Origin: Rhizobium sp. PP-CC-3A-592
Lineage (GTDB): Bacteria > Pseudomonadota > Alphaproteobacteria > Rhizobiales > Rhizobiaceae
Direction: 5' to 3'
NCBI RefSeq assembly: GCF_003217095.1
Contig: NZ_QJSR01000002.1
Coordinates: 930,001-994,000 of the forward strand
Length of the DNA: 64,000 nucleotides
How positions within the stretch are numbered: the first letter of the stretch is position 1; the number at the start of each line of letters is the position of its first letter. Below, in pieces: positions 19,985-22,763 of this stretch. The notes under the pieces were generated by a model, which was not told where the DNA came from, searched no databases, and saw only the letters and a list, made by a program, of their open reading frames with translations. The position numbers were made by a program, and so were the translations under genes.

Positions 19985-21454
<1,470 letters not shown>

Positions 21455-21482: not shown

Positions 21483-21512
21483 CGTCATCCTCGGGTTTGT
21501 CCCGAGGATCTG
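21483..21512 (+). repeat. Left palindromic repeat of the GIY-YIG module
   Basis: A 30-base unit whose core is a perfect hairpin: ATCCTCGGG (21487-21495), a five-base loop, and CCCGAGGAT (21501-21509). It is an inverted copy (29 of 30 bases) of the repeat at 21886-21915 and ends 11 bases before the GIY-YIG start codon. It looks like a REP-type element. Confidence 0.85.
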
Positions 21513-21523
21513 ATCTGGCGTCC

Positions 21524-21877
21524 ATGGAGGCAGAGTTGTCGGGTTTCGTTTACATGATGACCGACAAGCCTCGCGGCGTGATTTACACAGGCGTAACGAG
21601 CGATTTGGCGGGACGGGTGCGGGAGCATCGGGATCATGTACACGAGGGGTTTACGGCGAAATATAGAGCGGAAAAGCTGGTGTGGTTTGAACGCCATCCG
21701 AACATTGTCCTGGCGATACAGCGGGAAAAGTCGCTGAAACGGTATCGGCGGGAGTGGAAAATGAAACTGATCGAGGGCCTCAATCCAACGTGGACCGATC
21801 TGTTTGAACGTATTGATGAAATCGACAATCCATATCGTCCGCATTCAAACACGATAATGTGGGGCTATTATAATTGA
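21524..21877 (+). CDS. Single-domain GIY-YIG nuclease family protein
   Basis: A 117-residue protein that is almost only a GIY-YIG domain. The motif pair appears as FVYMM (Tyr10) and VIYTGVT, followed by the catalytic-type Arg in AGRVREH, then FTAKY and the metal-site Glu in IQREKSLKRYRREWK. This is the YhbQ/UPF0213-like group of small nucleases, whose cellular roles are mostly unknown. The ATG at 21524 is chosen; an in-frame TTG upstream lies inside the left repeat. The gene is bracketed by inverted copies of a palindrome, sits inside the SUF operon in the same orientation, and has visibly more A/T than sufB and sufC, all pointing to insertion of a small mobile unit. Confidence 0.88.
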   Translation: MEAELSGFVYMMTDKPRGVIYTGVTSDLAGRVREHRDHVHEGFTAKYRAEKLVWFERHPNIVLAIQREKSLKRYRREWKMKLIEGLNPTWTDLFERIDEIDNPYRPHSNTIMWGYYN

Positions 21878-21885
21878 GACGACGG

Positions 21886-21915
21886 CAGATCCTCGGGACA
21901 AGCCCGAGGATGACG
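21886..21915 (-). repeat. Right palindromic repeat of the GIY-YIG module
   Basis: An inverted copy of the left repeat with one mismatch, in the loop. The hairpin arms are ATCCTCGGG (21889-21897) and CCCGAGGAT (21903-21911). It begins eight bases after the GIY-YIG stop codon. In the SUF transcript it would fold just ahead of sufC, so it may stabilise or attenuate the message. Confidence 0.85.
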
Positions 21916-22007: not shown

Positions 22008-22763
22008 ATGCTTGAAATCAGAAACCTCCATGCCCGGATCGCCGAGGATGGCACCGAGATCATTCGCGGATTGAACCTGACCGTGAAGGCTGGCGAAGTC
22101 GCGGCCATCATGGGGCCGAATGGGTCGGGGAAATCGACGCTGTCGTATATTCTCTCGGGCCGCAAAGACTATGAGGTTACCGAAGGCGACATTCTGTACA
22201 ACGGCGAGAGCATTCTGGAGCTCGACGCGTCGGAGCGTGCCGCGAAGGGCATTTTCCTCGCCTTCCAGTACCCGGTCGAAATCCCGGGCGTTGCCACCAT
22301 GCAGTTCCTAAAGGTGGCGATGAACGAGCAGCGGAAGTATCGCGGCGAGGAAGAGCTGAAGACCCCGGATTTCATCCGCCGGGTCAAGGAAGTGGCCGCC
22401 GAGCTGAAGATCAACCCCGATATGCTGAAGCGGCCGCTCAATGTCGGCTTCTCCGGCGGTGAGAAGAAGCGCGCCGAGATTCTGCAGATGGCGCTGCTCG
22501 CGCCCAATCTCTGCATTCTGGACGAAACCGATTCGGGCCTCGATATCGACGCGCTGAAGATCGTGTCGGATGGCGTGAACGCTCTGCGGTCGCCGGATCG
22601 CGCCGTGATCGTCATCACGCATTACCAGCGCCTGCTGGAATACATCGTGCCGGATACGGTCCACGTCCTCTACAAGGGCCAGGTCATCAAGACCGGCGAC
22701 AAGTCGCTGGCGCTGGATCTGGAAGCCAACGGCTATGCCGACATCATCGGCGCGGCGGCTTGA
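22008..22763 (+). CDS. sufC: Fe-S cluster assembly ATPase SufC
   Basis: A 251-residue ABC-type ATPase that powers the SufBC2D scaffold. Walker A is GPNGSGKST (residues 36-44), the SufC signature is FSGGEKKR (near 150-157), and Walker B is CILDETDSGLD (near 170-180). The ATG follows GGAAGGAACGACC. A 92-base spacer separates it from the right repeat of the GIY-YIG module, unlike the tight joins further down the operon. Confidence 0.96.
   Translation: MLEIRNLHARIAEDGTEIIRGLNLTVKAGEVAAIMGPNGSGKSTLSYILSGRKDYEVTEGDILYNGESILELDASERAAKGIFLAFQYPVEIPGVATMQFLKVAMNEQRKYRGEEELKTPDFIRRVKEVAAELKINPDMLKRPLNVGFSGGEKKRAEILQMALLAPNLCILDETDSGLDIDALKIVSDGVNALRSPDRAVIVITHYQRLLEYIVPDTVHVLYKGQVIKTGDKSLALDLEANGYADIIGAAA

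Follow-up and report, generated by a model that had tools for sequence, protein, structure and literature searches.

A solo GIY-YIG nuclease gene between sufB and sufC bracketed by CGTC-tagged REP palindromes: a candidate partner for CGTC REPs

According to the accessible part of Di Nocera 2013 (PMC3733652), REPs are split into the GTAG superfamily, which is linked to RAYTs, and the CGTC superfamily, which is found mostly in Alphaproteobacteria, has stems of 8–9 bp beginning with AT and loops of 4–5 bases, is connected with dRS3 of Neisseria, and was left without a dedicated transposase gene in that survey. RAYTs, in the available portion of PMC8049555, are conserved and vertically inherited, yet dispensable, genes adjoining their palindromes. 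Non-autonomous palindrome dimers, a vertically inherited conserved gene beside the same palindromes and higher numbers of palindromes in gene-bearing genomes are features that the locus described here shares with the REPIN-RAYT system as outlined in excerpts of PMC8049555 and PMC8266576, whereas the enzyme is GIY-YIG here and HUH/Y1 there, and the tag is CGTC here and GTAG there. Both the Y1 enzyme and the GTAG tag were looked for and found absent, so the system resembles RAYT-REPIN without being one, in line with the different kind of REP system proposed in the initial annotation of this DNA. No report linking GIY-YIG genes to REPs was found among the open-access papers listed (the subscription literature lies mostly outside this search, and priority is unproved); a RAYT and a GIY-YIG gene are merely listed among strain-specific genes in the available part of PMC9465073, and no GIY-YIG partner is named in the corresponding parts of PMC12306157, PMC6006769 and PMC5082802.

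The window (the whole stretch of DNA analysed, 64,000 nucleotides from Rhizobium sp. PP-CC-3A-592) contains a unit of 433 bases between sufB (19985–21454, + strand; Pfam SUFBD_core, 262.6 bits) and sufC (22008–22763, + strand; Pfam ABC_tran, 81 bits, the name being taken from its position in the SUF operon). According to Pfam, a second SufBD-core protein and then a class-V aminotransferase follow downstream of sufC, and the neighbours are presumably sufB, sufC, sufD and sufS, names that we assigned from gene order. The left CGTC-tagged REP (21483–21512, + strand), laid out in tag and stem as in the CGTC superfamily, consists of a CGTC tag at 21483–21486, a 9-bp stem at 21487–21495 and 21501–21509, the loop TTTGT and the tail CTG; the right CGTC-tagged REP (21886–21915, − strand) is its inverted copy, with the tag pointing outward. 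As had been described beforehand, the two inverted 30-base units bracket the gene and are identical at 29/30 positions with the sole difference in the loop, 11 bases separate the left unit from the ATG at 21524 and 8 bases the stop from the right unit, and the whole is richer in A/T than its neighbours (GC 0.529 against 0.595 for sufB and 0.602 for sufC). The solo GIY-YIG nuclease gene (21524–21877, + strand) was recognised by Pfam PF01541 (46.9 bits, cut-off 22.6), by the starts of its homologs and by its catalytic positions, which upholds the small GIY-YIG gene first proposed. Its reading frame stands, whereas the proposed start at ATG 21524 (117 aa) gives way to TTG 21536 (113 aa), which is likelier because the majority of the aligned homologs begin 4 residues after the window ATG and a GGAGG lies ahead of the TTG, at 21526–21530. 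The gene sits between open sufB and sufC frames, so that no coding gene is interrupted in the manner expected of homing. The protein gave no match in NCBIfam; it gave none in PADLOC either, by which a defence-gene reading was rejected, and the gene gave none in the phage records searched, by which a phage origin was rejected.

On their sequence, the window units are REPs of the CGTC superfamily, a described kind whose tag the initial annotation does not mention. They carry an unpaired CGTC at one palindrome end (TGTC and CCTC also being allowed in the superfamily), a 9-bp stem from AT, ATCCTCGGG, and a 5-base loop, and the own genome has many copies, mostly in dimers of opposite orientation, all as in the accessible part of the survey (PMC3733652); they are unlike those REPs in that both window units end in CTG, the tail there being CCA in most though not all, and in that a cognate GIY-YIG gene is found here, no associated transposase gene being reported in that part. 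At up to 2 mismatches, 25 palindromes were counted in the own genome and 0 for a reversed-pattern control, so these copies are not due to chance. Ten own-genome loci were scanned and yielded six distinct outward-tagged dimers (L001, L002, L005 = L006, L007, L009 and L013); the tails in the copies examined are mostly CTG, with one TAT and two CCG, and CCA or CTA tails are present in other homolog clades. In L001, L002 and L009 the two palindromes of the dimer have unlike stems, for example CGGG against CGGC or ATGCTC against ATCCTC, and dimers of this sort are also reported for CGTC families in the available text of PMC3733652.

The linkage of gene and palindromes was assessed at 153 homolog loci from the host family and from named genomes, of which 144 were kept after removal of a fragment (L021), of the duplicates L055 and L063 and then of 6 further duplicates. 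The named-genome set comprised 80 loci, the best 80 of 572 relatives, and 40 further loci were picked by hand (20 paralogs in already sampled genomes and 20 from lower in the homolog list); 17 solo GIY-YIG loci of palindrome-rich genomes stand outside the 144, and L234 and L245 likewise stand outside the analysis. With a tagged palindrome defined by a CGTC or TGTC tag and a stem of at least 8, such a palindrome lies within 250 bp of the gene in 114/144 deduplicated loci and on both sides in 80/144, which bears out a link with GIY-YIG genes and not a spread independent of them. In an earlier set of 110 loci, palindrome density falls from 5.8/kb at 0–125 bp to 0.059/kb at 2–3 kb, and shuffled flanks of the same set gave a palindrome in 10/4320 cases. 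The best-matching upstream and downstream pair agrees in the first 8 stem bases and in loop length in 54/63 loci, against 24% for random pairs, and the tags of the nearest pair point outward in 37/63 loci. UvrC loci, which share the domain, have a tagged palindrome in 0/13 cases within 250 bp, with the upstream side covered only. The second solo GIY-YIG gene of the own genome (L016 / L022, C1:348241) likewise has no tagged palindrome within 250 bp. Clade N also differs, with a tagged palindrome in 0/8 loci (L043, L045, L046, L047, L049, L170, L171 and L183), and is perhaps a fully domesticated branch.

Some side observations were made at these loci. A palindrome of another stem occurs 295 bp downstream of the match at L016 / L022; seven of the eight clade N loci (GWVYIM...) are tied by flank similarity to one genomic site, together with L084; and the homolog of Neisseria gonorrhoeae (L202:1284-2105) is found within a dense array of dRS3-like CGTC palindromes.

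The type of palindrome follows the clade of the protein. On the maximum-likelihood tree of the 144 proteins, stem class requires 7 changes (66 rows; shuffled mean 30.7, minimum 25), loop class 19 changes (110 rows; shuffled mean 49.7, minimum 40) and palindrome presence 14 changes (shuffled mean 27.5, minimum 22). The window gene belongs to clade A, where the commonest loop is T-ending in 28/29 loci; in clade B it is A-ending in 27/29 loci, and of the other two one has a G and one no palindrome. The remaining clades show different stems and loops of 4 or 6 bases. A tree of 150 rows gave SH-aLRT values of 99 for clade A and 96 for clade B, with half of the inner branches open. Paralogs were represented by 33 loci in 13 genomes, 20 with a tagged palindrome and 13 without, and in 5/6 genomes having at least two palindrome-bearing paralogs (G026, G104, G191, G279 and G298) the palindrome types differ between them, the three paralogs of G298 having three types. 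Host background is no explanation for the matching, because paralogs within one genome differ in type. Departures are seen in the clade A locus of G279, where one A-type palindrome is next to two T-type, and in the clade A locus L035 (G008), the flanks of which carry the other loop type.

Genome-wide counts were compared over 297 genomes of the family, the two palindrome tallies behind the test having a match in 150 and 85 genomes; each count includes the few palindromes that flank the gene itself, and the threshold for clade B was at least 145 bits, so that G247, G100, G259 and G142 (140–144 bits) fell outside it. T-loop palindromes occur in 18/19 genomes with a clade A gene (median 6) and in 67/278 without (median 0; p 2.7e-13), and non-T palindromes in 14/14 genomes with a clade B gene (median 10) and in 88/283 without (median 0; p 9.6e-11); neither clade A with non-T palindromes (p 0.37) nor clade B with T palindromes (p 0.23) gave an association. 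The counts show a double dissociation between clades A and B, with p-values that ignore phylogeny. G008 is the only clade A genome in which T-loop palindromes are absent, and it has 15 of the other type. The expectation that palindrome number depends on the gene thus holds for the cognate clade and fails in 15 genomes that hold at least 10 T-loop palindromes without a clade A gene. These 15 were checked together with four genomes rich in the other type, and in 6 of the 19 (G010, G036, G102, G194, G238 and G289) UvrC is the only GIY-YIG match, with no homolog match, while G162 and G210 have UvrC and weak or partial homolog matches only. In the other eleven genomes, 17 solo GIY-YIG loci were examined, 5 of them with a tagged palindrome and 0 of the T type, and T-loop palindromes are abundant in ten of the eleven. 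Gene loss with persistence of the palindromes would explain palindrome-rich genomes lacking the gene; in the six genomes with UvrC alone, either the partner was lost or another mover exists. E. coli genomes without RAYT keep many, though fewer, REPINs according to the available portion of PMC8049555.

Regarding the enzyme, the catalytic positions are conserved in 147–150 of 150 homologs. GIY-YIG domains have conserved Tyr, Tyr, Arg, His, Glu and Asn residues. The predicted structure of the window protein (mean pLDDT 86.3, pTM 0.80) has its best Foldseek matches in UPF0213 BH0048, the branched-DNA nuclease Slx1 and the UvrC domain, none of them below E 1e-3, and a sequence profile reached UPF0213 BH0048 at E 7.4e-6. 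The likeness in predicted fold to UPF0213 and Slx1 nucleases (1zg2, 6seh and 7cq3) makes structure-specific cutting of a hairpin or cruciform by the window protein plausible. We know of no palindrome association for UPF0213 and Slx1 nucleases, and of no strand-transfer activity for a single-domain GIY-YIG nuclease. The solo genes L224 and L225, which we take by eye to be UPF0213-like, have no tagged palindrome. The Y1 transposase (PF01797) is absent from the own genome (G000), which rules it out as the partner there, and from 28/31 other gene-bearing genomes; the three Y1 loci found have a tagged palindrome in 0/3 cases within 3.35 kb. Homologs are labelled 'GIY-YIG nuclease family protein' or 'excinuclease ABC subunit C' in annotations.

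We consider that the 433-bp unit is probably (at roughly 0.7) the gene-bearing member of a CGTC REP system and that its GIY-YIG nuclease would serve as the dedicated partner of the genome's matching palindromes, a reading for which the conserved active site, the purifying selection on clade A and the long stay of this clade at sufB-sufC also speak. The RAYT-like role that the initial annotation gave to the small nuclease is supported as an association, through linkage, clade matching and counts; the nicking or processing of the palindrome and the shaping of suf mRNA that it also proposed are conjectural. Protein binding, cutting and palindrome movement are steps that we infer: the nuclease may recognise its cognate tagged hairpin, either single-stranded during replication or extruded as a cruciform, and may nick or resolve it beside the CGTC tag, after which host replication and repair of the liberated or broken ends would now and then place a copy of the REP dimer at another position, with low frequency. 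More tentatively, and at somewhat under even odds, a single-domain GIY-YIG nuclease, without known transposase chemistry, may spread its cognate hairpin dimers, probably via cutting of cruciform or single-stranded hairpins and host repair. It would then form its own class of bacterial mobile system, evolved in parallel to RAYT-REPIN, which could explain the proteobacterial CGTC REPs, dRS3 of Neisseria among them, and which would have diversified into many nuclease-palindrome pairs of orthogonal specificity. The CGTC REPs, lacking a dedicated enzyme since the 2013 survey as far as its accessible part goes (PMC3733652), gain a strong candidate partner, and the clade-matched partner puts the question within reach of tests using short oligonucleotides and a protein of roughly 100 residues. 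If true, REP systems would have had two or more origins involving unrelated enzymes, nature would offer a series of nuclease-hairpin specificities, and the annotation of a widespread gene that at present goes by these two labels would change.

Different patterns of residence were observed for the two main clades. Clade A has sufB and sufC on either side, oriented alike, in 26/30 loci (29 without a duplicate), the rest being at two other places; the 32 loci of clade B (29 without duplicates) are spread over 16 sites or more, as judged by a lenient comparison of proteins in which many flanks span only 700 bases; and the protein divergence is similar, with a median identity of 0.78 for clade B and 0.75 for clade A. 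Clade A is under purifying selection, with a median pN/pS of 0.20 and a maximum of 0.44 (276 pairs, 24 rows). Within the genus, the gene is present in G000 and G004, a remnant is found in G002, and no match was obtained in G001, G003, G005 and G006.

Such purifying selection and a long stay in the SUF operon, together with the resident clade N that has no palindromes and the stable RNA hairpins of the two window units (−16.3 and −16.6 kcal/mol), would suit a nuclease domesticated for a host task, such as cruciform resolution at REPs, limiting of REP spread or processing of REP hairpins in mRNA, that does not spread REPs. We regard this as rather unlikely, since cognate palindromes are more and not fewer where the gene is present, the gene is absent or broken in the close relatives just named, and clade B, scattered over its many sites, has palindromes in 28/29 deduplicated loci.

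The gene could also be parasitic on the palindromes, a homing-type nuclease that would cleave certain REP hairpins and insert at those places, the REPs being spread otherwise. GIY-YIG domains are typical of homing endonucleases, and those of the I-TevI and I-BmoI type share the catalytic domain and are linked to mobility; clade B weakly matches the phage homing-endonuclease family phrog_7168 (E 1e-4); the gene lies between two outward-tagged palindromes, like the spacer of a dimer, in those 37/63 loci; and palindromes exist in genomes without the gene. This is nevertheless quite improbable, as counts of the cognate palindrome and not of the other type are higher in gene-bearing genomes, and clade A keeps to one site in most of its loci with palindromes still matching, unlike a homing gene. 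The window protein, unlike GIY-YIG homing endonucleases, is single-domain and its gene intergenic, with palindromes on both sides and no intron or interrupted coding target seen. That the gene is found merely in REP-rich spots by chance or hitch-hiking can hardly be credited, even though CGTC REPs lie between genes, at times in large numbers, and the Neisseria gonorrhoeae homolog lies in a dense array of them, given the about hundred-fold fall in density within 3 kb, the rarity of palindromes in shuffled flanks, the unlike palindromes at paralogs of one genome and the lack of tagged palindromes at the UvrC (250 bp upstream) and Y1 transposase loci.

To return to the partner reading, the copy at sufB-sufC would be a resident, RAYT-like source gene and not a recently jumped element. 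The sufB end was located in 17/21 loci, the own included, where 12 sufB-sufC gaps have no tagged palindrome and five have one (L132, the own; L133, the remnant; L138; L139; and L142), and relatives that carry the gene at this place also carry palindromes there, as the link between the two had required. The gaps of G003, G005 and G006, of 133–134 bp, are not alignable by eye with the G000 flanks, and G015 has a palindrome at sufB-sufC with the gene absent. Neither a clean empty site nor a target duplication was found among the sufB-sufC junctions of relatives and the plasmid strain comparisons, and movement is for this reason judged from site diversity and copy number. In L133 (G002) a deletion that begins within the left palindrome and reaches the gene has left 33 codons and the right palindrome; L134 (G001) has a 248-base gap that has no palindromes and may hold a different small reading frame; and the gaps of other relatives likewise vary in content.

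Among plasmids, pSymB of S. meliloti has 1 palindrome match. On plasmids of S. medicae, the R. etli group and Shinella, a given intergenic site can differ in its dimers from one strain or species to the next, and the aligned differences look like REP-REP recombination or deletion. At gabT-gabD of Shinella, L244, L246, L251 and L252 have a dimer, L253 has a single doubly tagged palindrome and L254–L256 have none. Where L251 has the dimer, L253 retains one palindrome with a tag at either end, as though the part between the loops had been removed, and a 9-base direct repeat provides an alternative explanation for this reduction.
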